Positions 3,860 to 39,730 of a stretch of DNA of 42,928 nucleotides are shown here, piece by piece. Location of the stretch: the IMG/VR virus record IMGVR_UViG_3300045738_000513, positions 1-42,928 of that record; one strand, given 5' to 3'. Position numbers and translations under genes: made by a program. How positions within the stretch are numbered: the first letter of the stretch is position 1; the number at the start of each line of letters is the position of its first letter. Under the pieces are notes generated by a model that saw only the letters and a program-made list of their open reading frames with translations, made no database searches and had not been told where the DNA came from. The stretch is from a virus.

Positions 3860-3947
3860 GCAAGACGGCGACAACGGTGGCGGGATCCTGGTGGTGTGCG
3901 CCATCATCCTCACCGCCTGCGTCATCGCGGTGGCCTGCACATCGTGA
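3813..3947 (+). CDS. Very small membrane peptide overlapping lipoprotein and terminase genes
   Basis: This 44-codon frame starts at ATG 3813, or gives 37 codons from GTG 3834. A basic N-terminal half (KRLLSRRRQ) is followed by DGDNGGG and a strongly hydrophobic end, ILVVCAIILTACVIAVAC, then Thr-Ser. LTAC fits a lipobox. The stop overlaps the GTG start of the large terminase as GTGA, the coupling used throughout this genome. Neither start has a strong SD. It could be a small holin-like or spanin-like peptide, or simply a coupling frame. Function is not claimed. Confidence 0.4.
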   Translation: MVSARNEVKRLLSRRRQDGDNGGGILVVCAIILTACVIAVACTS

Positions 3948-5650
3948 CCGCAGCAGACCCACTACTGGATTCGCGCAACTTCTTGGCTGGTGCGTGGCGA
4001 GCCAACCGGCTGCCACCGCCAACCCGGTTGCAGTATTATCTCGTGGACCAGATGCAGAACGGTCCCGATGACCTCGTGGTGCTCTGCTTCCGTGGGTTCG
4101 GCAAGTCCATCATCGGTACTACGCAGGGCAACCAGGTTTTGTACGTCGATCAGGAGCGACGCTTCCTCAACGTGTCTTGCAGCAAGGGCAAGGCCGACGA
4201 GTCGTCGAACTACATGCTGGATCTGATTCAGGCTATGCCCGAGACCCGACACCTCTACCCAGACCGCGAGCAACGGTCTTCATCGGTGCAATTCGATGTC
4301 AAGGGTGCGACACAGGCACACGCTCCGTCTGTTCGTAGCCTTGGCATCCTTTGACTTTCCAATCAGATCACAGGCTGCCGGTCGTCGAACATCCTCGCTG
4401 ACGACATTGAGTCGAAAGAGAACAGCGCAACGCTTTCCATGAGGGCTCGCGTTCGTGAGAAGAACAGGGAGTTGGGCGCATATGTGTTGCGATCTGCGGA
4501 CGACTTCCCCGAGAATTTCCCCCCTAAAATTTGCCATCTGGGTACTCCCCAAATTGAAGAGTCACTCTACTGGGAACTGGAGCACGCGGGTCACAACGTG
4601 GTCATCATCCCGGCACGCTACCCCGACGAAGAGATGGAGGATCTCTATGGTGATCGCCTAGCCGAGATTCTGCGCGACGACCTTCGCAAGGACCCAGACC
4701 TACGTGGTAAACCGACCGAGCCCGCCCGCTTCAGCGACCGCGAGTTGCTCAAGCGGGAACGCAAGGCGGGGCCGCATGGCTGGATGTTGCAGTTTATGCT
4801 CTCGCCGACCCTTGGTGAGTCCAACCGGTTCCCGCTGAAGCTCCCCGATCTGATCGTCACCGACTGCGACGACCGCGAAGCACCCGAGAAGCAGTGGTGG
4901 TCAAGCGTCAACTTGGTCTTGGATCTGCCGTGTCCAGGTCTGGCGGGTCAGGACTGGCATGGCCCCAACGCGGTGCACGAGGGCAAGATGATGCCCTACA
5001 CCGAGTGCATTCTAGCGGTGGACCCCAGTACAGGGGGTACCGACGAGTTGGGCTATGTGGTACTCAAACTTCTCAACAGTCAACTCCACTTGCTGGACTG
5101 CGGCGGGTTCGTGAAGGGCGACAGCGATGCGACGATGAAGCGACTGGCCCTCGTCGCCAAACGCTTCAAGCCACACAAGGTCATCGTGGAAAAGAACTTC
5201 GGGATGGGCATGTGGGGCAAACTGTTCGCGCCCTTCCTGCGCAAGGAGCACAGTTGCGAGATCGAGGGGGTCCACGTCACCGGCAAGAAGCAGCCCCGGA
5301 TCTGCAGCACGCTCGAGCCCGTCATCGCTTCACACCGGCTGATCGTCAGCAAGGCAGCTATCGAGAGCGACATCCGCTCATCCCATGTGCATGAGGCCGA
5401 CGCGGTGGAGCACCAGTTGTTCTACCAAATGGCTCACATCACCCGGGATCCCGACTGCCTCAAGAAGGATGACCGCATTGACGCTCTATCGCTGGGCGTG
5501 GCACACTTTGAGGAAGCCTTGGATTTGGACTTCTACGAAGAGATGCAGGAGCGCGAGGCTGATGAGCTAGACCAACAACTTGAGGACTGGAGTGAGCGAG
5601 CCCTGTTTCAGGGCAGCAACGCAGAGCCTTCCCACAACTGGATCAACTGA
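3944..5650 (+). CDS. Terminase large subunit (T7 gp19-like), interrupted by in-frame TGA
   Basis: This is the DNA-packaging motor. From GTG 3944 the frame gives 568 codons, close to T7 gp19 (586 residues). The Walker A region is CFRGFGKS (codons 48-55). The Walker B region NILADDIE is at about nt 4388-4411. The nuclease residues are D in ILAVDPSTGGTDELGY, E in VIVEKNFGMGMWGK and the DD in KKDDRIDALSLG; TLEPVIASHRLIV matches the family. A TGA at 4352-4354 splits the frame after the Walker A half. Walker B lies between this stop and the next in-frame ATG (4439), with no ATG/GTG/TTG between, so reinitiation alone would lose it. The codons CTT TGA CTT look like a 9-base insertion relative to T7 (SVRSLGI...QITG against SVKSVGI...QLTG). 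Readthrough, recent mutation or a sequence error are possible. Confidence 0.88.
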
Positions 5651-7233
5651 TGGCAGCTTACCCAACCTACATGATGCTCGGGCAGGAGATATTCTTAGGC
5701 TCTCTGTCGGAGGACTGGCTCACCGACAACGAGGATGACCGCTGGGATGACGCCGAGGCCAGCATCGACATCTACGACCACGTTGCGGGAGCCGTGACTA
5801 CCTACACCACCCTGCCCGGTGGGCTCAAGTCCAACACCCAGGACGCGGGGGACTCAGCCATCGTGGGGATGGATGTCTCCATGTGGCGCTGGCTGCTGGG
5901 CGAGTCCCACCCGTCTGGCATGGCGGTCTTCAAGCGCACTGACCCTGGCGTGGTGGGCAACTCGGGATCGAACCGGTGGGGCAAGACCTACGCCCAGTCG
6001 TACTCCAACATCGCGGCAGGGCACACCGCCCTCAACACCCTGATCACCGGGCGCGGCGACACCATGGACATGCTCGGGATCTTCCTGGGCGTGGGCTACA
6101 ACGAAGCGGTGGCGGGAAGCCCCACGCTAGACGCTGCCTTCAAGGTCGATCTGACCCAACTGATCTTGGACCTTCGGACGGACTACGCATCCGCCACCAC
6201 CCCCATCGTCTTGGATCTGCCGCCGAAGACGGTGCCCGGGTTCACGTCTGCACAACTCACGTCCCTTCTGAGTGCGCGCAACGTGATCAAGCAAGTCGCA
6301 GCCGCAGATGAGAACGTGAGTTACGTGTCAGCCGATCTGCTCTACCGCAGCAACGGGGCGACCAAGTGGTTCTACACGGGCGAGGCGACCGTCACCCAAG
6401 GGGACGCGATGGGCAAGGAAATGTCCCGCCTGGTCACCGGCAAGGGCACCAACCCGGGTCTCGGCGTCCCGGTCTACGTCATCCTTGGCGACGACAACTG
6501 CGTTGGCTCCATCCCTGGCACCTACTTGGATGACGGGGCCGACGAGGCGTACAGCGAGCCAATGGCCAACGTGAAGACGTGGAACTGGGCCAACAACACA
6601 TGGGAAGCCCTCGACACGGATAGCAACTCCAACACATCCACCGATGGGACATCGAATTACGGTCCTGACATCAGCATGGGCGTGGCGTTGGGCACAATGC
6701 ACCCTGACGAGACGGTTTACCTCTTCAAGCTGGGTCGGAACACCTCGAGCCTGGGCAACGCATCGAGTACGGGTGGGAACTGGCTAGCCTACAACGCGGA
6801 CATCTACGCAGAGGTGGTCACAGAGTGGGGGCTAGCGAAGACCGCGCTGGACGCCGTAGAATCCGTTGTGCCGGACGTTCGGGGTGTTGCCCTACTATTC
6901 GGCGCGGGCGAGGACGTGGGCACACGCGCCCTGGCAGACGCCTTCCTGGCCAACCTTCGGCAAGCGGCTAGCGACTACCGCACCCTGTTCCAGACCAGGG
7001 TGACCGGTGGGGATCTCACCGTGGCCATCGTGAAGCAGCAAGACACCGGGCAATTCACCCAGGAGTGGGTCGATACCGTGCGGCGTGCTGTGACCCTGGC
7101 TAGCGAGGAAGACCCCGCCATCGTGGTGGTCGATGCCGACACCGCCCGGGTCAACGCCGACAACACCACGCTAGCGGGGGACGGGATCCTCGATGTTGGG
7201 AGAAGGATCGCCGCCGGTTTTGCGGGGGGCTAG
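5650..7233 (+). CDS. Tandem SGNH/SASA-esterase-like protein, probably catalytically inactive
   Basis: This 527-residue protein shares one base with the terminase stop (TGATG). It reads as two ~250-residue copies of a sialate-O-acetylesterase-like (SASA, SGNH-fold) domain. Copy 2: block I VYVILGDDNCVGSIPG (family GQSN), then GPDISMGVAL and VYLFKLGRNTSSLGN (family GPE..FG.AL and ALIK.A.GGTSL), block III ALLFGAGEDVGT (family WYQGESD), and a C-terminal GDGILDVGRRIA where the family has the catalytic Asp-x-x-His. Copy 1 shows MMLGQEIFLG and GIFLGVGYNEAV. In both copies the nucleophile Ser is replaced and the catalytic His is absent. Family members deacetylate surface sugars. Here a sugar-binding or purely structural virion role is inferred. 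No signal peptide. An alternative is an enzyme with relocated residues. Confidence 0.6.
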   Translation: MAAYPTYMMLGQEIFLGSLSEDWLTDNEDDRWDDAEASIDIYDHVAGAVTTYTTLPGGLKSNTQDAGDSAIVGMDVSMWRWLLGESHPSGMAVFKRTDPGVVGNSGSNRWGKTYAQSYSNIAAGHTALNTLITGRGDTMDMLGIFLGVGYNEAVAGSPTLDAAFKVDLTQLILDLRTDYASATTPIVLDLPPKTVPGFTSAQLTSLLSARNVIKQVAAADENVSYVSADLLYRSNGATKWFYTGEATVTQGDAMGKEMSRLVTGKGTNPGLGVPVYVILGDDNCVGSIPGTYLDDGADEAYSEPMANVKTWNWANNTWEALDTDSNSNTSTDGTSNYGPDISMGVALGTMHPDETVYLFKLGRNTSSLGNASSTGGNWLAYNADIYAEVVTEWGLAKTALDAVESVVPDVRGVALLFGAGEDVGTRALADAFLANLRQAASDYRTLFQTRVTGGDLTVAIVKQQDTGQFTQEWVDTVRRAVTLASEEDPAIVVVDADTARVNADNTTLAGDGILDVGRRIAAGFAGG

Positions 7234-11126: not shown

Positions 11127-11681
11127 TCAGTTTTTATTGAGTGCCTTCCCGCGTGTCAGACAGGCGATACACCCTCCGCACCTCTCTGCTGAGTAGCAGC
11201 TCCAGGTCTCTCCGAGTGGAACGCCGAGGCTCTCGCCGAGTTTGACGACGGATGCTTTGCTCTTGGTGGTGAATGGCGCGGATACCGTTACTCCGGTGTG
11301 CTGTGCGGCGTCGTGCATCAGGGCGACGAACTCGGGTCGGCAGTCAGGGAAGGCGTCGTAGTCGCCTTGAGTTGCGCCCAGGTAGACCGAGTCAGCCCCC
11401 ACCTCTACGGCCCAATTAACTGCGAGGGAGATCAGGATGGCATTTCGGAAGGGCCAGATCACCGCGCCGGGATCTTGGGCGACCAGGCCAGCGATATTCT
11501 TCACCCGGAAGTCGTGGCAGTAGATGTTGGCGATGGACTTTGCCGCTTCTTCTTCCCTGGGGAAGGCGGGTTGCCCGTAGTTGAAGATCAGCCCGAACAC
11601 CTCGTCTTCGTTACTCTTGAGGTGTGCGGTGAGGACGGACGAGTCGATGCCACCCGATAGCAAAACGATGACTTTGCTCAT
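11127..11681 (-). CDS. queC: 7-cyano-7-deazaguanine (preQ0) synthase
   Basis: QueC converts carboxy-deazaguanine (CDG) to preQ0 using ATP and ammonia. The 184-residue protein begins with the PP-loop ATP-binding motif LLSGGIDSS (residues 7-15), then has FNYGQ, PFRN and the substrate region GATQGDYDAFPDCR. The C-terminal zinc site is C162, C168, C171, C174 (CYSAERCGGCIAC). It is shorter than E. coli QueC (231) but keeps all motifs. It overlaps queE by ATGA at the end of the leftward operon. With the DpdA-like gene upstream, the product is probably destined for phage DNA rather than tRNA. Confidence 0.92.
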   Translation of the reverse strand: MSKVIVLLSGGIDSSVLTAHLKSNEDEVFGLIFNYGQPAFPREEEAAKSIANIYCHDFRVKNIAGLVAQDPGAVIWPFRNAILISLAVNWAVEVGADSVYLGATQGDYDAFPDCRPEFVALMHDAAQHTGVTVSAPFTTKSKASVVKLGESLGVPLGETWSCYSAERCGGCIACLTRGKALNKN

Positions 11682-12289
11682 CGGAAGCCCACGACATGCT
11701 GGTCCTGACGCGACAGCGCCCAGTTCGGGTGCCGCTCAAGAAACTCCATGCACCGCTTCAGGCTCGCGGGATCCTCGACGCCATCAATTGAGAGTGGTTG
11801 GACGTAGCGGTACCAGAAATCGGTGTAGCCATCCTTGTGCTCGGCGACGAACTCAAACAGATCGAGACCGTGGAGCCCATCCACCAACTTGATCTCGTGC
11901 CCGTAGCGCTGGACGAAGGATTCTGCCTTGTGAGGTGAGACAGACAACCAGTCAACCGTTGGAGTGAACCGCTTGTGTCCAGCAGTCGCGACGGCGACCG
12001 ACAATCCACGGGCGCGAAGTTCGCGAATGAGTGGGACCAAATCGTGATCCTGCGGTTCGCCGCCAGTTATCCATACCCACTTGTCTTTCGCTGATGAGGG
12101 GATCATGTCCCCCACCCGGAAGGACAGTTCCCTAGCGTCGTGGGTGGACTTTGCCGCGTAGGCGGTGTCGCATTCAGGGCATCCAACCGAGCAACCACCC
12201 AAGCGCAAAAACGCCATCTGGAAGCCGCGAAGATGACTCTCTCCTTGAATCGACCAGAAGATTTCGCTCACTGGGTATCGAACAGACAT
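11678..12289 (-). CDS. queE: 7-carboxy-7-deazaguanine synthase (radical SAM)
   Basis: QueE is a radical-SAM enzyme making CDG from carboxy-tetrahydropterin. In this 203-residue protein the cluster ligands are C33, C37 and C40 (CSVGCPEC, the CxxxCxxC form). The N-terminus EIFWSIQGES is the family's substrate-binding start, WITGGEPQDHD is the SAM-binding GGEP motif, and LSRQDQHVVGFR matches the usual end of the family. AAGGAG lies about 9 bases before the ATG. It overlaps the DpdA-like gene by 22 bases and queC by ATGA, so the three are one operon. Neither QueD nor FolE is in the window. Confidence 0.92.
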   Translation of the reverse strand: MSVRYPVSEIFWSIQGESHLRGFQMAFLRLGGCSVGCPECDTAYAAKSTHDARELSFRVGDMIPSSAKDKWVWITGGEPQDHDLVPLIRELRARGLSVAVATAGHKRFTPTVDWLSVSPHKAESFVQRYGHEIKLVDGLHGLDLFEFVAEHKDGYTDFWYRYVQPLSIDGVEDPASLKRCMEFLERHPNWALSRQDQHVVGFR

Positions 12290-12936
12290 GGGGTAGTGCT
12301 CCTTGTTTTGACGGTGCGGTGTTCGCGTTGGTATCGCTTGACGATGATTTCAAGCGTTTCGCCGTGGGTCAGCCATGGGAGTCCTTTCTTGATCTTCCAC
12401 GCATCGCGGAACCAGTTGGTGGAATCGAATGAGTCGAGACGTTGGCGGTCGGAGAATGCGCGGAGAGCCCAGCCATGGATATGGATGCTGGCGGGGATTC
12501 GCTCGAGTGATTCGTCCAGCCATGACGAGATCGTCCGAGGCGGTTTCATTCCGAGGCCGATCCACTTGGGTTTCTTGGCGAGGATGGCGTCGAGTGCTTC
12601 CCAGGGGTCGGTGTCGTGGAAGGTGGGGAACATGGTTGGGTATCTCTCCCAGTTGCGGAGACCTTGCTCCCAATCCCCAGCGATATCGTCGAGGCTGGCG
12701 ATGGCGCGAGCGTTGGTGAACTTGCTTGCCCATTCCGCGTAGGCGTCGAGGTCGATGGAGACGCCAGTGTTGAGGGTTGAGTAGGCTCCTGAATCGATCA
12801 GTAATCTGGGGAAGGACGGTACATAGTCGTCAATCCAGGTTACCCCTTTGTAGGCACCGAACGACAGGAGCACGGGCATCCCCCGGCAGTGGTCGGCCTG
12901 GAGTTGGCTCATCGGGCTGGAGAGATAGACCGTCAC
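12268..12936 (-). CDS. dpdA: DpdA-like DNA guanine transglycosylase
   Basis: DpdA proteins are tRNA-guanine-transglycosylase relatives that exchange guanine in DNA for a 7-deazaguanine such as preQ0. The start is probably GTG 12936, one base after the previous stop, after GGAGGAG, giving 222 residues; a longer frame upstream overlaps a real gene. Key segments are LLIDSGAYS (D48, compare DSGGFQ in TGT and DSGAFS in phage DpdA), the barrel strand AIASLDDIAG, WIGLGM, HIHGWALRAF and SFDSTNW (D171, the phage-type S.DSTSW motif). The CxCxxC zinc site of tRNA enzymes is not present, as in short phage forms. Neighbouring queE and queC supply its substrate. The gene symbol rests on motifs and context. 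Confidence 0.78.
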   Translation of the reverse strand: MTVYLSSPMSQLQADHCRGMPVLLSFGAYKGVTWIDDYVPSFPRLLIDSGAYSTLNTGVSIDLDAYAEWASKFTNARAIASLDDIAGDWEQGLRNWERYPTMFPTFHDTDPWEALDAILAKKPKWIGLGMKPPRTISSWLDESLERIPASIHIHGWALRAFSDRQRLDSFDSTNWFRDAWKIKKGLPWLTHGETLEIIVKRYQREHRTVKTRSTTPCLFDTQ

Positions 12937-12937
12937 C

Positions 12938-13183
12938 TCACTCCTCCGCGTCCTCGCCGGAGAGTGGGGCGAGAAGGATGGGTCCGGCGGGTTGTGGTGC
13001 TTGGATGGTGTGCTCGATCTCAAAGGAGGTAGCCCCACGATAGTTAGTCCCTGCGTTGCAGAGCTTGCAGTCGTCGGCCAATTCGGGGAACAGTGCCACG
13101 ATCCAGCGAAGGACCGTACCGTCTGGCACCTCGCATGTGGTTCTGATTCGCGACACTGAGATGGGTTTCAGTTTTTCTGGCAT
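12938..13183 (-). CDS. Hypothetical protein between DpdA-like and DnaC-like genes
   Basis: This is an 81-residue protein starting at the ATG at 13183 after GAGGA. Residues ~1-40 are helical with a possible helix-turn pattern (SVSRIRTTCEVPDGTVLRWI). CKLCNAG near residue 39 is a CxxC pair, followed by an acidic, Pro-rich end. It overlaps the helicase loader by 16 bases and is separated from the DpdA-like start by one base. Operon position suggests a link to DNA replication or modification. I do not recognise it. Confidence 0.6.
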   Translation of the reverse strand: MPEKLKPISVSRIRTTCEVPDGTVLRWIVALFPELADDCKLCNAGTNYRGATSFEIEHTIQAPQPAGPILLAPLSGEDAEE

Positions 13184-14940: not shown

Positions 14941-15099
14941 GCTATTGAATCATAAAGGATGCAAACCCGTTGACACCGAGGATTCAGTGTGGGAAGAAGG
15001 GAGTTGGGTCGTCGCCACAACAATCCGTGCGAGCTTCATACAGGGTGCGAGCACGGGACGAGATGGGGCGGCGATCCGATCACCCCACCCGAATCACAT

Positions 15100-15837
15100 A
15101 TGTACAGCCCCATCCAGCCACTCGACGGAGAAGTCTTCGACATCGAAACCCGGGGAGCCCAAGGGCTCGCCCAGACGCTTGGTATCCAAGAGAAGATCCT
15201 GCGGGTTGACGAGATGGAGGACGTGGAGGACATGCTCGAGTTTGCCTTCCAAGAAGAGATCGCACTCGGCAACGCCAAGAAGTACGAATCGGTGAAGAAG
15301 GTGATCACCGAGAAACTCGACAAGATCGTCTCCAAGGCAGCGGTCAAACTCTACGGCGCAGAAATCTACGCCATCGCTTACGCGGGATTGGCGGGTGGCA
15401 AGGTGAAAGCGATGGCCGTCACGGATGAGGTGGACGAGGCCAAGTTGATCCGCACCTTCTTGGAAGCCTTGGATCAGGGCGGGCCTCATTGCATGGTGGG
15501 ATTTAACATCCGTGGGTTTGATCTACCAATCCTGCGTGCGCGGTGTGCGTTCCACCAAATCCACTGGCCAGCCTGGTTGCCCCGCACGGTGCGGGAGGAC
15601 CGCTACGACACCAACGTGGTGTTCGACATCATGGATGTGCTGGATGAGGGACCACTCGACACTTGGCTGCGGGTGTTTGGCCTGCCGCCGAAGACTGCGT
15701 CCGGTGCGAAGGTCGCCGAGATGAGCCCTCGAGAGGTTGCCCAATACTGTGCGGACGATGTGGAGCGCGAACGGCTGCTTGCGCGCCGGGTGATGCGGAA
15801 CACGAAACACGTTGACCTTGTTGGAGATGACGAATGA
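15100..15837 (+). CDS. 3'-5' exonuclease of the PolB-exonuclease-like (DnaQ fold) type
   Basis: This 245-residue protein is taken from ATG 15100; an upstream extension to 14989 is compositionally unlike protein. Exo I is FDIET (D14, E16). Exo II is MVGFNIRGFDLPIL, with the conserved N and D. Exo III is YCADD (Y216, D220), so all catalytic positions of a DEDD exonuclease are present. A helical, charged insert (residues ~45-80) separates Exo I from the strand AEIYAIAYAG. It overlaps the RecT gene by ATGA, so the two probably work together, with the exonuclease making single-stranded DNA for annealing. Most RecT partners are lambda-exo or YqaJ nucleases, so this pairing is less usual. Confidence 0.8.
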   Translation: MYSPIQPLDGEVFDIETRGAQGLAQTLGIQEKILRVDEMEDVEDMLEFAFQEEIALGNAKKYESVKKVITEKLDKIVSKAAVKLYGAEIYAIAYAGLAGGKVKAMAVTDEVDEAKLIRTFLEALDQGGPHCMVGFNIRGFDLPILRARCAFHQIHWPAWLPRTVREDRYDTNVVFDIMDVLDEGPLDTWLRVFGLPPKTASGAKVAEMSPREVAQYCADDVERERLLARRVMRNTKHVDLVGDDE

Positions 15838-16835
15838 CCGAGAAGACAACCAAGAAGGCGCACCCATGCGCAGTCATCCTACGCGAACGCAAAGAGGCCC
15901 TTGAGGCCGTGCTCGGCCCCGAGCGAATCAAGGCGTTCATGGCGAACGTGTTTGCGCAACTGTCGCCAACCAACGCCGCTGGCAAGCCGAACAAGTTGCT
16001 GCAGTGCTCACCGGGATCGTTCTTCGCCGCGTGCCACCAAGCCGCCACGCTGGGACTGCAACCGGGGCCACTCGACGAGGTCTACCTTGTGCCCTACGGC
16101 AAGAAGGCTGGGCTGATCATCGGCTACAAGGGGATGCTTGAGCTTGCACGACGCCACTCAGACATCCTGAAGATCACCGCCAAGTGCGTCTACGCGGGTG
16201 ACGAGTTTGGCCACGATGAGGCGACGGGGCAGATCCATCACTCGTCCAACTGGGAGGTTGACAAGACGGACGACAACATCGTGGGCGCATACTGCCGCGC
16301 CGTCGTGCGCAACTGTGAGGAACCGATCTCCTTGGTGATGAACAAGGCGCAGATCGAGATGCGTCGGAACAGGTCTGCTGCCAAGAACGGCAACTTCTGG
16401 CGAGATGACTATGCGGCCATGGCTCGCAAGACTGTCATCCGTGCACATTTCAACGGTGGTGAGCTACCACGCAGCACTGCGTTGGCCGCAGCAATCCAGT
16501 ATGAGGTTGAGGAAGAGAAGCGTGCCGAGGTGCTGTCCGTGAGGACCGAGGAACCAGAGACCCAGCACGCGGCCATGGAGATAGGGTTTGATACGGAAGC
16601 GCCTGAACCGGATGCGTTTGGTCTTGGCGCACCAGAGCGGGCAAAGCCGTCAACGGGCGACAAGAAGGTGATGATTTCCGACATCCTGGCGCAGGGCAAG
16701 CGACTGAAATGGTCAGATGAATCAGTTCGCAAGTTCGCAGGCGATGTTCTCGGAAGTCCCGATGATCACCCCCTCACCTCGCACTCCGTCCGCGAACTAC
16801 AGGATGTCTTGGGCGAGATGGAGGTGCAGAAGTGA
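15834..16835 (+). CDS. recT: RecT-family single-strand annealing protein
   Basis: This is a 333-residue protein. The N-terminal half has the RecT hallmarks LLQCSPGSFFAACHQAATLG and LQPGPLDEVYLVPYGKKAGL, then IIGYKGMLELARR and a charged middle. AMARKTVIRAHFNGGELP is the conserved helix near the end of the core. Residues ~220-333 are an acidic, less conserved tail of the kind that often contacts single-strand-binding proteins. It anneals complementary strands during recombination or break repair. It is flanked by the exonuclease (ATGA overlap) and the first glycosyltransferase (GTGA overlap). A RuvC-like nuclease lies at the end of the same operon. Confidence 0.9.
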   Translation: MTEKTTKKAHPCAVILRERKEALEAVLGPERIKAFMANVFAQLSPTNAAGKPNKLLQCSPGSFFAACHQAATLGLQPGPLDEVYLVPYGKKAGLIIGYKGMLELARRHSDILKITAKCVYAGDEFGHDEATGQIHHSSNWEVDKTDDNIVGAYCRAVVRNCEEPISLVMNKAQIEMRRNRSAAKNGNFWRDDYAAMARKTVIRAHFNGGELPRSTALAAAIQYEVEEEKRAEVLSVRTEEPETQHAAMEIGFDTEAPEPDAFGLGAPERAKPSTGDKKVMISDILAQGKRLKWSDESVRKFAGDVLGSPDDHPLTSHSVRELQDVLGEMEVQK

Positions 16836-17725
16836 CAGGGCTCCCGCTCCCCCGCAAGAAGAAGTCGAAGTCGAAGAAGAAGAAGCGCAAGGGCGCGAAG
16901 AAGAAGGCAGTAGCGGATGCTGCCGCAGCACAGGATGAGATCGTCACCGCTGACGAAGTCACCGAAGAGGTGGTGACGCTCCCAACCATCGTCGAAACCG
17001 CGAAGAGGACCAACCGCGTCTTCTCATGCCTCTGGAAGGGCGAGGATCTCCCCGGGTTCTGCAACAACGTCTACGGCCCCAAGTACGTCGAGTGCCTAAA
17101 CCGTGGTGTTAGACGCCATGTGCCCAACGGGCAACTCACAATGCTCTGCGACGAGTACTACTACCAGATCCTGAAGAAGGACAAGCGGTTCAACTCGGTG
17201 CGGCTGGAGAAGTTCGCCGAACCCGGTGTCGGTGGCTGGTCGCGCATCTTTGAAGTGAACCGTGAGAACCTCAGACCGAAATTAGGCAAGCGTCACGTCT
17301 GGGTCGGACTCGACACCGTCTTCATGGGCAACTGCCAGTGGCTGTTCGACTGGTCCTACTCACCCGTGGGGCTACCGATGGACCCATTCCACCCGCATGT
17401 GGCCTGCAACGGGGTGTGGACCTGGGACTACGAGGGTGCTGCCTTCGTGTGGGACGAGTACCAAGCGGCGAAGGCTTCCAAGATGGAGAACTACCAACTG
17501 TTCGGACGACCATCCGAGATGATGCTGTTGCGCTACCTGTTCAAGGCTGAAGGCTGGGTGCCCCTCGAGGACAAGCCCCGGAAGTTGTTGAGTTACAAGC
17601 GCCACGTCCTGTTTGGCTACAACCCGTGGAAGATGCAAACGTCGATCACCTACTTCCATGGCAATCCTAAGCCGCACCAGTTGAAGAGGGACAACCTGAT
17701 GAGTGCTGAGTGGTTGAAGAGATGA
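16832..17725 (+). CDS. Glycosyltransferase-like protein with poly-lysine N-terminus
   Basis: This 297-residue protein starts at GTG 16832 after GGAGG. Residues 8-25 are almost all Lys/Arg/Ser, encoded by an AAG-rich purine tract, followed by an Ala/Glu/Val linker to ~60. The rest resembles a GT-A glycosyltransferase group: TNRVFSCLWKGEDLPGFCNN at the start of the fold, HVWVGLDTVFMGN in the position of the DxD metal site (here GLDTVF, so the second Asp is not conserved), ACNGVWTWDYEGAAFVWDE, and the C-terminal YFHGNPKPHQ, matching the usual FHG.PKP motif. The basic arm could bind DNA or an acidic polymer. First gene of the glyco-operon. Confidence 0.7.
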   Translation: MTGLPLPRKKKSKSKKKKRKGAKKKAVADAAAAQDEIVTADEVTEEVVTLPTIVETAKRTNRVFSCLWKGEDLPGFCNNVYGPKYVECLNRGVRRHVPNGQLTMLCDEYYYQILKKDKRFNSVRLEKFAEPGVGGWSRIFEVNRENLRPKLGKRHVWVGLDTVFMGNCQWLFDWSYSPVGLPMDPFHPHVACNGVWTWDYEGAAFVWDEYQAAKASKMENYQLFGRPSEMMLLRYLFKAEGWVPLEDKPRKLLSYKRHVLFGYNPWKMQTSITYFHGNPKPHQLKRDNLMSAEWLKR

Positions 17726-18465
17726 CGGAGCACTTGATCTACCAAGTGGCTGTCGGGCAGGAAAGCAAGCTCTACCAGTTCTGCACCCGGAGTGTCTTCG
17801 ACTACTGCGAGCGGCACGACATCGACTACATGCTGCAGACTGTCCCCATCCTCAAGATCAACCCAGACCCCAAGACCAGTGGGCGAAGCGAGAGTGCCAG
17901 CAAACTCGGCTACCTGCCGATCTTTGAAAAGGAAAACGCACTCCAGTATCTGGGTGAGTACGACCAGGTTGCCGTGATCGATGCGGACGTGTGGATCCGG
18001 CCCGATGCCCCGAACATCTTTGACTCTGCCAAGGGTGACTTCGCTGCCGTGGTGGAGCAGACAATGCCGATCAACTGGCGCTACAAGAAGAAGATCAGTG
18101 GCTATGCGTGGGGGCAGTACGGGGACAGGCACTACCCGTTCCTGAACATGGGCGTGATGGTGATGAACAAGACCCTGCTGCCTTACCTCGAAGGGCAGAC
18201 ACCACGGGAGTTCCTGATGCGTCCAGAGTTCAAGGACTTCGTTGACGGCGTGGGGCAATACAAGTGGAGCACTGACCAGACGCTGCTCAACACTTGGCTC
18301 AAGGACTGTGGGGCTGACGTGCACAAGTTGGGCTGGCAGTGGAACGGTCTCTACGGCGCACTCCAAGCCGACAAGATCAAGGACGCACACTTCGTCCACT
18401 TCTTCCTCTCCGACCATCTGGAGAACCAGGGCGAGGACGTGGCCGAGTTGGTGAAGACGCTGTGA
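17722..18465 (+). CDS. Glycosyltransferase, GT-A fold (GT8-like)
   Basis: This 247-residue protein starts at the ATGA overlap. The first strand is HLIYQVAVGQESKLYQFCTR. A clear DxD motif sits in VAVIDADVWIRPDAPN and would bind the metal and nucleotide-sugar. FLNMGVMVMNKTLLPYL and KWSTDQTLLNTWL are the acceptor/donor-site segments typical of GT8-like enzymes, and the C-terminus has HFVHFF where such enzymes carry the final metal-binding His. No signal or membrane segment, so a cytosolic enzyme. Substrate cannot be read from sequence. Confidence 0.75.
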   Translation: MTEHLIYQVAVGQESKLYQFCTRSVFDYCERHDIDYMLQTVPILKINPDPKTSGRSESASKLGYLPIFEKENALQYLGEYDQVAVIDADVWIRPDAPNIFDSAKGDFAAVVEQTMPINWRYKKKISGYAWGQYGDRHYPFLNMGVMVMNKTLLPYLEGQTPREFLMRPEFKDFVDGVGQYKWSTDQTLLNTWLKDCGADVHKLGWQWNGLYGALQADKIKDAHFVHFFLSDHLENQGEDVAELVKTL

Positions 18466-19247
18466 AACACATCGCCGTGCCAGCACGCAGCGTGCGGCGA
18501 AAGGACACCCCCTACACCTGTCCAGGGTTCGGTGACCGCGTTCACACCGTCATGCTTGGGTATCTCTACGGCAAGGCTGTGGGTGAGCCTGTGACGCTGC
18601 ACCTGACACGGGAACACGTTGTGAGCGGCAATCCTGACGTGGACAAGCAGCAGTCATGGAAGGACATCATTGATCTGTTCCCAGACTTGTCAGTATCGAT
18701 CCAGTCTCACCAGATCCGGGGGGGGTCAAACGAGGAATGGGTCCAGTACCTCCAGAACAAGGGCGTCAACGCGGAGTGCTACTACTACGGCGACACGTTT
18801 GGCATGTACCGCTACGACGAGAAGTTCGGCTTCGACATCGCGCCCTACCTCACGAAGAACCCGATGCTGGAACCTATCGTAGGCTCTGCCTATGAGTTGC
18901 CTGATGGCCCATACGCCACGATGCAGTGGGACGCGGGCAGTGCTGACCACTGTGAGCGCAGGATGCCCAAGGTGAAGCGGGAGAAGATCCTCTGTCACTA
19001 TGCGAAACTGGGCCTGAAAATGATCACTGTCGGCGGCGAGTCAGACGATCCACTACTGCGCACCTCGGTGAAGCACGTCGGCTACGTGATGGCGAACGCC
19101 AAGCTGCACGTTGGCGTAGCGTCAGGACCCATGTTCGTGGCCAACCTCTACCTGCCACCTGAACGCATTCACCTCTACACCATGAGGGAACGATCACATC
19201 ACACTGTCCGATGGCTGGCGAACGGAGTCGTGCAGAAACACCCATGA
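18462..19247 (+). CDS. GT-B glycosyltransferase-like protein (GT9/heptosyltransferase-like)
   Basis: This 261-residue protein starts at GTG 18462 in a GTGA overlap. The second half has the ADP-heptose:LPS heptosyltransferase pattern: YATMQWDAG, ILCHYAKLGLKMITVGGES, a short helix, then MANAKLHVGVASGPMFVANL, corresponding to the family's a..l.VG.dSGp.H.A motif. The first half, ending in a Tyr-rich segment (ECYYYGDTFGMYRYD), is divergent. GT9 enzymes normally add heptose to lipopolysaccharide. Here the acceptor is unknown and the class assignment is tentative. Confidence 0.6.
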   Translation: MKHIAVPARSVRRKDTPYTCPGFGDRVHTVMLGYLYGKAVGEPVTLHLTREHVVSGNPDVDKQQSWKDIIDLFPDLSVSIQSHQIRGGSNEEWVQYLQNKGVNAECYYYGDTFGMYRYDEKFGFDIAPYLTKNPMLEPIVGSAYELPDGPYATMQWDAGSADHCERRMPKVKREKILCHYAKLGLKMITVGGESDDPLLRTSVKHVGYVMANAKLHVGVASGPMFVANLYLPPERIHLYTMRERSHHTVRWLANGVVQKHP

Positions 19248-19834
19248 GCGAACTGGAATGGGATGACCGGGGGTGGGGGTTCTTGCCGCCTGACGGCCCG
19301 TGCATGAAGGACTACTGGACTGATTACCAGTTGCTCGACGCTACCCCGATGGGGCGGGTGTTGACGGCGCTTCGGGCAGGATTCGTCAATGGACACGTCA
19401 CTCTCACAGACGATGGGTTGGTTGACGTAGGCATTGGTGGTGGCGCGTTCTGTGAGTACATGGATTGCCTCGGCATCGACATCGATACTCAAGCACTCGA
19501 ATGGCTCGGTGTGCTCCGTTGGGAAGGCCAGCCGGTCGATGTGATGACCTTCTGGGACTCGCTTGAGCACATCGCTGACCCTGCTGATTACCTCGACAAG
19601 GTGCGGAACATGGTCTTCGTATCGACACCGATCTACCTGGATCAGTCCGACGCCCTGACCAGCAAGCACTACAAGCCCAACGAACACCTATGGTACTTCA
19701 CCCACGATGGCCTTCTTGCCTTCATGGACATGCACGGGTTGACCTGTATCGCGCACAACGGGCTTGAGATAGACGCGGGCCGTGAGGGTATCCGCAGCTA
19801 CGCCTTTGAACGATTCGGGCACTTTGAACCATGA
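19244..19834 (+). CDS. SAM-dependent methyltransferase (class I fold)
   Basis: This is a 196-residue protein from ATG 19244 (ATGA overlap with the GT-B gene). The SAM-binding loop is LVDVGIGGGAFCEYM, motif II is CLGIDIDTQALEWL, and motif IV/V is DVMTFWDSLEHIADPADYLD, as in methyltransferases of the Methyltransf_11/23 type. STPIYLD and a downstream HLWYFTHDGLLAFMDMHGL segment are typical of small-molecule or sugar methyltransferases that occur in glycan clusters. The operon context suggests a sugar or modified base as substrate. No DNA-methylase DPPY motif. Confidence 0.75.
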   Translation: MSELEWDDRGWGFLPPDGPCMKDYWTDYQLLDATPMGRVLTALRAGFVNGHVTLTDDGLVDVGIGGGAFCEYMDCLGIDIDTQALEWLGVLRWEGQPVDVMTFWDSLEHIADPADYLDKVRNMVFVSTPIYLDQSDALTSKHYKPNEHLWYFTHDGLLAFMDMHGLTCIAHNGLEIDAGREGIRSYAFERFGHFEP

Positions 19835-20427
19835 CCGACCTCAAGACCATCTTTGACCGCGCAGGGACAGGCAAGGGCAAGGATGGGTTTGCCTCGGTGT
19901 ACAGCAAGGTGATCGGCCCACGCCGGGAGGAACCATTGAACCTCTTGGAGATCGGGATAGACCAAGGACACAGTCACCAGGCTTGGTTGGAATGGCTCCC
20001 AAACGCAACCATCACCGGCATCGACACGTTTGAGCGGTTCGCACCCGAGGACATCGAAGTCCTGAAGGATCCGAGGATGCGCCACTACCGCCGGAACAGC
20101 ACCTGGGGACCACCCAAGGACATGGGGAAGCTCGACTTCATCATCGATGACGGGTGTCACTGGCACGCTGCGCAGACTGCAACCTTCCTTCGCTACTGGC
20201 CACTGCTGAAGAAGGGTGGGTCTTACTTCATCGAGGACGTGTGGCCGTTTGCACACATGAGACCTGAGTGGAAGAAGCATCCCTTCCTGCTTGGCTTCCC
20301 CGGTGCATGGTCGAACGATCTCTACGACCTGTTGATCACCACCATTCGCGTCGGCAGGGTGACGGAGTGGGACCTCCGTGGCGGTGAGAACAACGACAAC
20401 TTCGTCCTGCAGATCGACAAGGTATGA
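19831..20427 (+). CDS. Class I methyltransferase, Methyltransf_24-like
   Basis: This 198-residue protein is coupled by ATGA on both sides. Motif I is LNLLEIGIDQGHSHQAWLEW, followed by ATITGIDTFERF. DFIIDDGCHWHAAQTATFLR and KKGGSYFIEDVWPF are the hallmark segments of the family containing macrolide and sugar O-methyltransferases and the cephalosporin-hydroxylase-like proteins, where the DDG and ED residues bind metal near the substrate. A metal-dependent O-methyl transfer to a sugar is the natural reading. Two adjacent, different methyltransferases suggest that two positions are methylated or that two substrates exist. Confidence 0.75.
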   Translation: MTDLKTIFDRAGTGKGKDGFASVYSKVIGPRREEPLNLLEIGIDQGHSHQAWLEWLPNATITGIDTFERFAPEDIEVLKDPRMRHYRRNSTWGPPKDMGKLDFIIDDGCHWHAAQTATFLRYWPLLKKGGSYFIEDVWPFAHMRPEWKKHPFLLGFPGAWSNDLYDLLITTIRVGRVTEWDLRGGENNDNFVLQIDKV

Positions 20428-21098
20428 GAGCCTTCGTCATCACGCTCAGTGGCAACGAGCAGTCCGAAGCAAGTGCGGACAGGCTGCTTGAGTCGCACGA
20501 GAAGTTGGGGAACGAGTTTGACCTAGTGGTCTTGCCTGCGACCGAGCCAGGGGACGCGGTGTCGTTCCTCAAGCAGCACGGACTGGAGTGGACGTACCCG
20601 TGGGTTCGCCACGAGACTCGGGCTGGTCTCACCCTCCACCCCTACACTACGACCAACAGGCTCGCACGCATCGCGACGTTCGTGTCGCACTACCGTCTGT
20701 GGAAACTTGCCTTGCTGGACGAAGTGCTGATCCTCGAGGACGACGCGGTGTTCACACGTAAGTTCAAGCCGCACTTCGACCGTTTCGCGGTGCTCGGGAT
20801 CAACGATCCTCGTGGTGCAACACGACGCGCTGCTCACTACCACTTCATGGTTCAGACGCACACCGACGAAGTATCCGAGGTGCCGTGGATCGACAAGCGG
20901 GATACCCCACAAGGTCTCGCGGGGGCGAGCGCATACCTGATGCGTCCCACGGGGGCCACTGCCGCGCTGAATCTCGCTTCCAGGCATGGTGCGTGGCCCA
21001 ACGACGCGCTGCTCTGCAAGCAACTGATGCCTGGGATGCTGGGCACGATCAAGAAGTACTACACCAAGGTGCAAGGGACACCGTCAACACTCGCATGA
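20424..21098 (+). CDS. Glycosyltransferase family 25-like protein (first of two)
   Basis: This 224-residue protein starts MRAFVITLSGNEQSEASADR, the GT25 start. FVSHYRLWKLALLDEVLILEDDAVF is the GT25 core, with the EDD acidic site; GLAGASAYLMRPTGA is the second conserved block. GT25 enzymes include LPS galactosyltransferases and collagen galactosyltransferases. It is ATGA-coupled to a second GT25-like gene. The two share the core but not length or ends, so they look like an old duplication or two separate acquisitions rather than a recent copy. Confidence 0.78.
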   Translation: MRAFVITLSGNEQSEASADRLLESHEKLGNEFDLVVLPATEPGDAVSFLKQHGLEWTYPWVRHETRAGLTLHPYTTTNRLARIATFVSHYRLWKLALLDEVLILEDDAVFTRKFKPHFDRFAVLGINDPRGATRRAAHYHFMVQTHTDEVSEVPWIDKRDTPQGLAGASAYLMRPTGATAALNLASRHGAWPNDALLCKQLMPGMLGTIKKYYTKVQGTPSTLA

Positions 21099-21736
21099 AA
21101 GGCAAAGCCTACGTCATCACGATCACATCCCTCGCCCAGTCGAGAGACGCAGCCAAACGGTGCATCCAATCGGGGCTCGAGGCTGGCGTCCGCGTTGTCC
21201 CAGTCAAGGCGTTCACTCCCGAGGACGATCCCAAACATATGTTTGAAGTCGGGGGGCTGGATCCCAAGGGATTCCACAACAACACCTACTCTCGCCTTGA
21301 GCCCTGCATGGCGACGTTTATGAGCCACCACACGCTCTGGTGTGAGTGCTACCACTTGGACGAGCCCATGTTGATCTTGGAGCACGACGCCGTGTTCGTG
21401 TCACCACTGCCTGAGTTGAGGGATGACGACATGCTGGTCAACCTCGGGAAGCCTTCCTACGGAAAGTTCAAGACACCCAAGGAAGGGTTCAGTCGGCTGA
21501 CCTCAAAGAAATACCTGCCAGGTGCACACGGGTACTACGTGACCCCCGGAGGTGCTGCCGAGTTGATAGAGAAGTCCGAACACGAAGCGCAGCCGACCGA
21601 CATCTATCTCAACCTTGAACGCTTCCCGTTCATCACCGAGTTCTACCCGTGGCCTATCGAGTGCGACGACTCGTTCTCGACGATCCAAAAGGAGAAGGGA
21701 TGCAAAGCGAAGCACAACAAAGTCGAACCGATCTGA
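21095..21736 (+). CDS. Glycosyltransferase family 25-like protein (second of two)
   Basis: This is a 213-residue protein from ATG 21095. MKGKAYVITITSLAQSRDAA opens the fold. ATFMSHHTLWCECYHLDEPM leads into LILEHDAVFV, where the usual EDD is EHD, and YLPGAHGYYVTPGGAAELIE is the C-terminal GT25 block. The Asp-to-His change in the metal site may lower or alter metal use. The end overlaps the next gene by 37 bases, and that gene's SD (AAAAGGAGAAGGG) lies inside this one. Confidence 0.75.
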   Translation: MKGKAYVITITSLAQSRDAAKRCIQSGLEAGVRVVPVKAFTPEDDPKHMFEVGGLDPKGFHNNTYSRLEPCMATFMSHHTLWCECYHLDEPMLILEHDAVFVSPLPELRDDDMLVNLGKPSYGKFKTPKEGFSRLTSKKYLPGAHGYYVTPGGAAELIEKSEHEAQPTDIYLNLERFPFITEFYPWPIECDDSFSTIQKEKGCKAKHNKVEPI

Positions 21737-22422
21737 TCTACCGCAACAAACACGACGGCGAGACCGTTCTGATCGTTGCTGGGGGGCCAAGCGTGAATGA
21801 CTTCAATGTGAACGATATTCAGAGGTTTACCTCAATAGGAATCAACCAGATCAGCCGACGCTTCGACCCGACCTACGTCACGCTGTTCGACTCCCCCACA
21901 CGCTTCGGCGAAGGCATGGCCCCCGCCTTGCGCAGTTTGCTGAAGTCCATCGTGGTCTGCACGGCGCGGCACTCAACGGAGTGGACGATCCTTCACGACA
22001 AGTCCGTGCGCGACCAACAGCGCGTGCATACACTCCAGCCATGGGGTCTCGGGAAAGACTACATCCGCTTCGACCGGGGTGAGTACCAGACCGTCTTCAA
22101 CACTTGGGACTGGGAAGAGGACTGGACGATTCCCTTCGGCCCGACATCAACTGGTGTCGCGTGTTGGCTTGCCGCGTTCATGGGGGCCAAGCGCATCGGC
22201 ATCATCGGGCTCGACCTTGGCGGGGACTACTTCTTCAAGTCGGACAAGCCGCACGCTACTGACCCGGAGGCGATGAAGATGGCGATAACGCTCTGGGGAC
22301 AGTTGGCCTTCCACATGAAGGAGTGGCTTGGCGTGGAGATTTTCAACCTGTCGAACCAGTCCTTGGTGGACACGGTACCGCACGCTGAGTTCGGCCACTG
22401 GCTCATGGAGAATGGCTCGTGA
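21700..22422 (+). CDS. MptE/DUF115-like or sialyltransferase-like protein
   Basis: This 240-residue protein starts at ATG 21700 behind a strong SD. The N-terminal VLIVAGGPSVNDFNVNDI has the GGPS loop shared by DUF115/MptE-type proteins and GT42 sialyltransferases. FTSIGINQISRRFDPTYVTL gives the 'known-object name' strand pattern of both, and FGPTSTGVACWLAAFMGAKR with IGIIGLDLGGDYF is the second conserved block. Both families occur in surface-glycan loci. The last enzyme of the glyco-run; its stop overlaps the RuvC-like gene by ATGA. Substrate unknown. Confidence 0.6.
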   Translation: MQSEAQQSRTDLIYRNKHDGETVLIVAGGPSVNDFNVNDIQRFTSIGINQISRRFDPTYVTLFDSPTRFGEGMAPALRSLLKSIVVCTARHSTEWTILHDKSVRDQQRVHTLQPWGLGKDYIRFDRGEYQTVFNTWDWEEDWTIPFGPTSTGVACWLAAFMGAKRIGIIGLDLGGDYFFKSDKPHATDPEAMKMAITLWGQLAFHMKEWLGVEIFNLSNQSLVDTVPHAEFGHWLMENGS

Positions 22423-22850
22423 TCATTCTGGGCGTGGACCCCGGAAAGTTGGGGGGGATTGCTTGGTGGAACGGCGAGGAAATGACCGTCAAGAAGATGC
22501 CCGCGACCGAGACGGACATCTCTGTCAGCTTGAGGTTCGGCTGCGCATTCGCCTACATCGAGAAGGTCAACGCTGGCCCGAAGATGTCATCGGGTGCAGC
22601 CTTCAAGTTTGGGTGGGGGTACGGGGGCCTGCGCATGGCCCTCATCGTCCACGGGGTTCCCTATGAAGAAGTCCTGCCCCGCACATGGATGAAGCACTAC
22701 GGCATGATGAAGTCCAGGGGGGAGTCCCAGACCGAGTGGAAGAACCGACTCAAGGGCAAGGCACAGCAGTTGTTCCCTGACCTCAAGGTGACGCTGGCGA
22801 CCGCAGACGCCCTCCTGATCTGCGAGTATGGGAGGCGGATCCGTGGCTGA
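22419..22850 (+). CDS. RuvC-like Holliday-junction resolvase
   Basis: This 143-residue RNase H-fold nuclease has its acidic residues in the RuvC order: D in LGVDPGKLGGIAWW, E in AYIEKVNAGPKM, and the DA in TADALLICEYGRR. The middle PRTWMKHYGMM and KGKAQQLFPDLKV match the small phage and mitochondrial RuvC group. It probably resolves branched DNA before packaging, complementing the RecT pair. It lies immediately upstream of the head genes and downstream of the glyco-operon, so the whole 15.1-22.9 kb run may be one transcript. Confidence 0.82.
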   Translation: MIILGVDPGKLGGIAWWNGEEMTVKKMPATETDISVSLRFGCAFAYIEKVNAGPKMSSGAAFKFGWGYGGLRMALIVHGVPYEEVLPRTWMKHYGMMKSRGESQTEWKNRLKGKAQQLFPDLKVTLATADALLICEYGRRIRG

Positions 22851-39361: not shown

Positions 39362-39730
39362 ATGCCAGACACCGACAAGAACGCACAGATGAGCTACAAC
39401 GGGAACGGGTCCCAGGACACGTTTCTCATCGACTTCAATGGTGGCTCGGACAAGTTCCTCAACAACACGGACATCATCGTCAAGGTCAGCACCGAGTTCA
39501 AGACGGTCGCGGCAGGCGAGTGGGATTTCGATTCAGCGGGTACCTCCGTCGTGTTCACCACTGGCAATATCCCCCCGGTGGGTGTGCTCAACGTGGTCAT
39601 CACCCGGGAGACTCCACACCCTGCACTTCATGTCACCTTCACAGATAGTGCACCACTGACGGCAGCACAACTGACCCAGTCTTTCCAGCAATCTCTCTAC
39701 TACACCGAAGAGGTGGAGGATCAGACGTAG
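39362..39730 (+). CDS. Tail-fibre adaptor (T7 gp17 N-domain-like)
   Basis: This 122-residue protein starts at the base after the gp16-like stop. SYNGNGSQDTFLIDFNGG and VKVSTEFKTVAAGEWDFDSA, then VFTTGNIPPVGVLNVVITRE, follow the layout of the N-terminal domain of T7 gp17. The end QQSLYYTEEVEDQT matches LQCLYYAEEVDDLI of the protein ending at 704. In T7 this domain is fused to the fibre; here it is a separate short protein, as in phages that use adaptors to attach interchangeable receptor-binding proteins. Confidence 0.8.
   Translation: MPDTDKNAQMSYNGNGSQDTFLIDFNGGSDKFLNNTDIIVKVSTEFKTVAAGEWDFDSAGTSVVFTTGNIPPVGVLNVVITRETPHPALHVTFTDSAPLTAAQLTQSFQQSLYYTEEVEDQT

Follow-up and report, generated by a model that had tools for sequence, protein, structure and literature searches.

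Eight consecutive genes (g1 to g8) in the IMG/VR virus record IMGVR_UViG_3300045738_000513, whose 42,928 bases were analysed as a whole and are referred to as the window, very probably form a phage-encoded cassette for glycan assembly, whatever the acceptor of the glycan may be. The cassette comprises five glycosyltransferase-like (GT) genes (GT-A, GT8, GT9-like and two GT25), two methyltransferase genes and one gene with a weak MptE/sialyltransferase likeness, all on the + strand between the genes for RecT and a RuvC-like resolvase. The fuller proposal, in which a transferable cassette of this kind assembles a glycan on a virion protein, is put forward tentatively, at somewhat less than an even chance. 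A defined gene frame with a combinatorial middle, recurring across unrelated tailed phages including this 43 kb T7-like one, seems to be new.

The gene block and its enzyme families

All eight open reading frames (ORFs) are present on the + strand with the coordinates of Table 1, as a sequence-only reading of the window had proposed in describing an eight-gene operon between RecT and a RuvC-like nuclease. Four-base ATGA/GTGA overlaps occur at nine of the ten junctions from the exonuclease to the RuvC gene (Exo/RecT, RecT/g1, g1/g2, g2/g3, g3/g4, g4/g5, g5/g6, g6/g7 and g8/RuvC), and the claim that such overlaps are nearly universal therefore stands except at g7/g8, where the best start of g8, the ATG at 21700 with the strong Shine-Dalgarno-like stretch AAAAGGAGAAGGG upstream, gives a 37-base overlap. 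Exo, RecT, g1 to g8 and RuvC form one closely overlapping block, which would be co-transcribed and translationally coupled.

The family labels given in the earlier reading held up unevenly. Pfam cut-offs are passed by g4 to g7 and the GT-A likeness of g1 is borne out by PHROG, whereas g2 and g8 fall under their Pfam cut-offs (g2 is accordingly labelled GT8-like only) and the "GT9" label of g3 has no counterpart in the libraries: g3 matched nothing in Pfam, PHROG or NCBIfam, hence no GT9 or heptosyltransferase model, so that its label is one of motif resemblance. The description of g1 as a poly-Lys enzyme is conditional as well, since the Lys-rich N-terminal stretch KKKSKSKKKKRKGAKKK (16832-16970, +) requires the GTG at 16832 as start; starts at 16970 or 16973 would drop it, and it is missing in the g1-like homologues, which are about 229 amino acids long.

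Acidic motifs of catalytic type are invariant over 30-39 homologues, namely the DxD metal-binding motif D87-x-D89 of g2 (invariant in 30 sequences), E96-H-D98 of g7 and E105-x-D107 of g6. Structure prediction with fold comparison, suggested earlier as a check on each enzyme, gave a confident model for g7 (GT25b), the one gene for which the GT-A fold of GT25 enzymes was checked by model; it matched the folds of a bacterial beta-1,4-galactosyltransferase (8xlz, Foldseek E 3e-10) and of the human collagen galactosyltransferase COLGALT1, whereas the model of g8, made without relatives, reached a predicted local distance difference test score (pLDDT) of 34.6. No clear transmembrane segment was found by hydropathy in g1 to g8 (maximum 19-residue mean 1.54), nor did any of the eight match a family of gtr-type flippases or bactoprenol-linked transferases. 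The lack of a clear transmembrane segment, the invariant motifs and the GT25b fold are together read as a soluble pathway for a methylated oligosaccharide. The earlier view that the set would be able to build an oligosaccharide and decorate it by methylation is thus supported, with activities predicted from sequence.

Table 1. Cassette genes, followed by bordering and other listed genes of the window (cut-offs in bits)
Feature	Position	Strand	Basis
g1, GT-A-like glycosyltransferase	16832..17725	+	phrog_1962 E 3e-11; hhalign probability 97.8 to relatives' fam54
g2, GT8-like glycosyltransferase, opens the conserved frame	17722..18465	+	PF01501 19.4 bits, under cut-off (24.3), E 9e-4; 50-61% identity to viral homologues
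g3, GT9-like glycosyltransferase	18462..19247	+	motif resemblance only; 22-41% identity to the family beside GT8 in relatives
g4, class I methyltransferase	19244..19834	+	PF13489 33 bits (cut-off 27); phrog_6564 E 3e-52
g5, Methyltransf_24-type methyltransferase	19831..20427	+	PF13578 27.4 bits (cut-off 26.3); family present in 27 loci
g6, GT25a glycosyltransferase	20424..21098	+	PF01755 29.7 bits (cut-off 24); profile matches solved GT25 structures; 34-60% identity to homologues
g7, GT25b glycosyltransferase	21095..21736	+	PF01755 36.9 bits (cut-off 24); structure model pLDDT 94.6
g8, MptE/DUF115-sialyltransferase-like, last cassette gene	21700..22422	+	PF01973 25 bits, under cut-off (34.6); phrog_4603 "alpha-2,3-sialyltransferase" E 4e-5
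DNA polymerase/exonuclease-like gene (Exo), opens the overlapping block	14989..15837	+	phrog_403 E 6e-8; 4-base overlap with RecT
RecT single-stranded DNA-annealing protein, upstream border of the cassette	15834..16835	+	PF03837 146 bits; phrog_148
RuvC-like Holliday junction resolvase, downstream border	22419..22850	+	phrog_1770 E 5e-24; 4-base overlap with g8
QueC, QueE and DpdA-like gene in a row	11127-13038	-	family matches

A fixed frame with an exchangeable middle

A search with GT25b alone led to three viral contigs in which GT8, GT25a and a g1-like gene are present as well, and alignment-based scans confirmed GT25b relatives in 198 viral contigs and GT8 relatives in at least 560; single-sequence scans with g3, g8 and RecT gave no relatives. 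In the prokaryote genome collection, relatives occurred in only three contigs, all of them from metagenome-assembled genomes. Among 50,697 phage records, tblastn found no match for g1, g2, g3, g6, g8 or a T4-like GT8, and a near-identity search of the cassette region returned nothing; the matches of GT25b were to two virus records from marine single cells, 25.6-37% identical, and, over 17-49% of the query, to three cyanophages, in two of which the match lay inside a 2-oxoglutarate (2OG)-Fe(II) oxygenase gene. Against PHROG the core families gave no match or short or weak ones, none full-length. Given the few prokaryote contigs and the lack of full-length matches in phage records and PHROG, the core families look largely virus-specific and uncatalogued, being mostly missing from these annotation resources.

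Likeness to the window decided which relative loci were picked, and most of them are fragments; the counts that follow carry this sampling bias. Of 163 loci, 142 were found to have GT8, 130 GT25b and 123 GT25a, each of the last two counts taking in distant paralogues of the other GT25 type; 27 have the g5-type methyltransferase and 20 the g3-type gene. Removal of near-duplicates (GT25b at >=90% identity) left 79 non-redundant loci, in which the order is GT8, a variable middle, GT25a, GT25b, GT-A and an MptE-like gene: GT25a lies immediately 5' of GT25b in 58 of 79 loci, a GT-A gene comes next after GT25b in 64 of 77, and the MptE-like gene falls within the following two genes in 56 of 72. Where a GT8 gene is found upstream (47 loci), two to nine genes (median 4) separate it from GT25a, and these middle sections have 42 distinct gene contents, made up of further glycosyltransferases, methyltransferases, sulfotransferases, epimerases and others; carbamoyltransferase and radical S-adenosylmethionine (SAM) genes stand inside or next to some cassettes. 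A look for the same gene order in other phages, as had been advised, thus found the frame in many viral contigs. Chance is ruled out as an explanation of the cassette because relatives of g2, g3, g5, g6 and g7 cluster elsewhere too, GT25a and GT25b are adjacent, and the motifs are invariant.

The window follows this frame in its GT8 gene, in g3-g4-g5 as the middle, in the adjacent GT25a-GT25b pair and in its MptE-like last gene, and departs from it in the place of the GT-A gene, since g1 stands first and does not follow GT25b. The only match of g1 among the relatives is to a minority GT-A family, and homology between g8 and the relatives' MptE-like family was not detectable. Nearly the window's order, GT8-GT9-x-MT24-GT25a-GT25b (MT24, g5-type methyltransferase), is found at loci L019, L020 and L024, where x is a different small gene in L019 and L020; the 49 kb record of L020 (G004) also has a QueC match above cut-off. 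At L003 (972-12146) and L107 (9348-10493), sequences read as carbamoyltransferase-, radical-SAM-, UDP-galactopyranose-mutase- and UDP-sulfoquinovose-synthase-like genes lie in or near the cassettes, pointing to predicted unusual sugars.

The carriers differ in virion type. The T4 capsid protein Gp23 was found in 16 of 48 large records, among them every record longer than 97 kb except that of L086, and not in the window, L008 or L086; from their sequences the carriers are classed as T4-like, Mu-like and unclassified phages together with this T7-like one. In the T4-like carriers the cassette adjoins PhoH, exonuclease and ribonucleotide reductase genes. At L008 (GC 65%), in our own reading a Mu-like phage by its portal and MuF genes, it is directly upstream of these two genes, and at L086 (183 kb, GC 59%) it is flanked by a GroES gene on one side and by long, fibre-like and unannotated ORFs on the other. 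The nearest relative of the window is L008 in the GT25b tree and L086 in the GT8 tree, so that GC-rich phages of differing types seem to exchange these genes, and the range of carrier GC, from 28 to 65%, makes diverse hosts probable. A cyanophage origin was also considered and is unsupported, no psbA/D-type gene being present in 46 records.

That the gene set is foreign to T7-like phages was confirmed by a portal-alignment search of viral contigs, in which none of 83 portal-related loci carried any cassette family; the cassette is therefore cargo within the T7-like lineage. RecT or RuvC relatives of this phage were likewise absent from these 83 loci, many of which are on short contigs. The suspicion that the cluster might be variable cargo not conserved in relatives consequently applies to the T7-like relatives but not to the unrelated phages, in which the frame is conserved. 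One possible account of this distribution, favoured with rather less than even confidence, is a glycosylation locus peculiar to phages that spreads horizontally, has a constant frame and an exchangeable middle, and would let tailed phages (T4-like, T7-like, Mu-like and others) coat their particles in strain-variable sugars.

The acceptor of the glycan

In the proposed pathway, nucleotide sugars from the host would be used in sequence by cytoplasmic, soluble GT-A, GT8, GT9 and GT25 enzymes to give a short chain, which g4 and g5 may O-methylate and which the MptE/sialyltransferase-like g8 would probably cap or anchor. The frame GT8 ... GT25a-GT25b-(GT-A)-(MptE-like) would make a common trunk and the exchangeable middle would set its decoration, so that the outer sugar would differ from phage to phage on a shared trunk, and such diversity of decoration points to an exposed surface. 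The likeliest acceptor would be a virion protein or several of them, from the capsid or the tail fibre, which would give the particle a variable sugar coat.

A virion acceptor, to which a little under half of the weight is given, would be consistent with the position of the cassette near what are likely morphogenesis genes in three non-T4 carriers (the window, L008 and L086), with its retention across probably diverse hosts and with precedents in chloroviruses and mycobacteriophages. Several points weigh against it. No common virion acceptor emerged, as the matches between this phage and the first 163 loci are confined to cassette genes; an 868-amino-acid spike-like protein had no match in 21 records, in a search without positive control; and the fibre-like ORFs of L086 gave no family match. 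The assignment of g8 is weak. The neighbours in the T4-like majority are of early type, and the cassette of the window is coupled to RecT and RuvC. Finally, assembly of the lipid A-core, or lipooligosaccharide (LOS), of bacteria typically uses GT8, GT9, GT25 and GT42-like enzymes.

The lipopolysaccharide (LPS) or LOS of the host is accordingly a near competitor, and a substantial minority of the weight goes to host-surface remodelling, in which the enzymes, at the cytoplasmic face, would extend or decorate the lipid A-core before its export and so block superinfection or re-adsorption to debris. With families of the LOS core type, no phage flippase or ligase would be needed; a surface polysaccharide would suit the variable middle, the poly-Lys tail of g1, if translated, could bind an anionic membrane, and the early-type neighbours in the T4-like carriers favour this explanation too. 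For the GT8-rich clusters of pelagimyophages, O-chain modification is what their authors favour (PMC7029224). Host remodelling is harder to reconcile with core enzymes kept over phages of such different GC, whose hosts' LPS probably differs, or with the head or tail genes that adjoin the cassette in the three non-T4 carriers, and blocking adsorption in a lytic infection would hardly seem to call for a long chain bearing sulfate, carbamoyl and methyl groups.

Glycosylation of DNA, on deazaguanine or otherwise, was the direction in which the sequence-only reading leaned. The substrate could for instance be 7-deazaguanine produced through QueC, QueE and a DpdA-like protein. The genes for these three are present in this phage, its cassette is joined by overlaps to RecT and RuvC, and DNA-metabolism genes lie near the cassette in T4-like carriers. 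The lean was not upheld, and a DNA target is now considered very improbable. The deazaguanine genes are on the opposite strand and outside the overlapping block, and among 46 other large carriers QueC was above cut-off in two and a thymidylate-synthase/hydroxymethylase-like gene was present in eight, absences that are not proofs in records that are mostly fragments. A middle that differs in nearly every carrier is expected of an exposed surface glycan and not of a base modification that must fit in the duplex. Improbable, if somewhat less so, is another product (a soluble glycan, a glycolipid or a small glycosylated metabolite) or largely dispensable cargo. Cyanophage LPS-gene clusters have been suggested as possible "stuffer DNA" for headful packaging (PMC3037559), but active-site motifs invariant over diverse homologues, the tight overlaps and the fact that a genome of 43 kb has kept the cassette speak for a function under selection.

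Sugar genes found in environmental phages commonly receive the label "LPS genes", with no known use, and a conserved frame with a combinatorial middle in unrelated virions makes the location of the glycan, on particle, host envelope or DNA, testable. Should the particle carry the glycan, differences between glycans would amount to a hidden level of surface diversity among phages, with consequences for adsorption, decay and recognition.

Genome context and known systems

The genome in the window is a mosaic of T7-like virion genes (portal, scaffold, capsid, tubular tail proteins and internal virion proteins) and DNA-metabolism genes (RecT, RuvC-like resolvase, DnaC-like and replication-initiation-like proteins). 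The cassette lies 1 kb upstream of the portal gene, and its GC and GC3 (GC at third codon positions) are about those of the remainder of the genome, which therefore gives no sign of recent import. A promoter and terminator scan yielded nothing decisive: promoter-like matches were at chance level, and no terminator-like site was found on the + strand from RuvC to the portal gene. From the QueC/QueE/DpdA-like row, this phage, T7-like in its virion genes, is predicted to have a set for modifying DNA with 7-deazaguanine. Two ORFs (3896-4354 and 4439-5650, +) together make up the large terminase, matching successive parts of phrog_38 (285-394 and 444-719); the split could stem from a frameshift, from a sequencing error or from an insertion. 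Immediately downstream of the terminase, a 527-amino-acid protein (5650-7233, +) contains a SASA carbohydrate-esterase domain (PF03629, 40 bits) and is possibly a virion-borne deacetylase of surface sugars. T7-type tail-fibre N-terminal domains were matched in two ORFs (3-704 and 39362-39730, +), in the former at its C-terminal end by the contig start, so that the record may be a cut fragment.

Among known systems, marine T4-like phages, including the cyanophages P-SSM2, S-SSM7 and S-SM2 and the pelagimyophages, carry "LPS" or glycosyltransferase gene clusters, that of P-SSM2 near phoH and those of pelagimyophages together with the tail fibres of the host recognition cluster, where GT8 is the commonest family (PMC3037559, PMC7029224). 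Such clusters, already known but unexplained, resemble the cassette in being groups of glycosyltransferase genes in T4-like genomes, as in its T4-like carriers. They differ in that the phage records hold no full-length match to the cassette GT8, GT25a and GT25b, and the accessible parts of these sources do not describe a fixed frame with a variable middle or T7-like, Mu-like and another non-T4 carrier (PMC3037559, PMC7029224).

GT25a and GT25b match, by profile and fold, the GT25 enzymes 8xlz (bacterial beta-1,4-galactosyltransferase), 9evj (COLGALT1) and 9crz (mimivirus R655), at 15-20% identity in structural alignments. A collagen-like hydroxylysine acceptor was tried and dropped, because no window protein has a Gly-X-Y run and the GT25b model ranks the bacterial galactosyltransferase above COLGALT1. 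The weakly PF01973-like last gene g8 recalls Maf, which we take to be a family of PF01973 type. Maf glycosylates flagellin prior to export, and the principle of cytoplasmic glycosylation of a structural protein before assembly would be shared (PMC4065374), whereas g8 is under the Pfam cut-off and neither nonulosonic-acid synthesis genes nor flagellin were seen in the window.

In the mycobacteriophages Che8 and Rita, tailed phages encoding glycosyltransferases, glycans on capsid proteins have been reported (cited in PMC11256854); a relative, Maravista, is reported to have two putative glycosyltransferases, no GT25a-GT25b frame is described there, and phage records gave no match to the cassette genes. 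The capsid glycans of chloroviruses are made by mostly soluble, early-expressed virus enzymes and consist of a common core with virus-specific decoration (PMC5408694). The likeness lies in soluble, virus-encoded glycosyltransferases with a methyltransferase domain and in the decorated core (PMC5408694), whereas chloroviruses infect algae, have these genes scattered and not in one operon, and make a known product; the cassette, known from its genes, is likened to them by description. If the virion proposal is true, bacterial viruses would possess in such cassettes a widespread system of sugar-coat diversity, with counterparts in the O-antigen and flagellin glycosylation loci of bacteria and in the chlorovirus capsid glycans.

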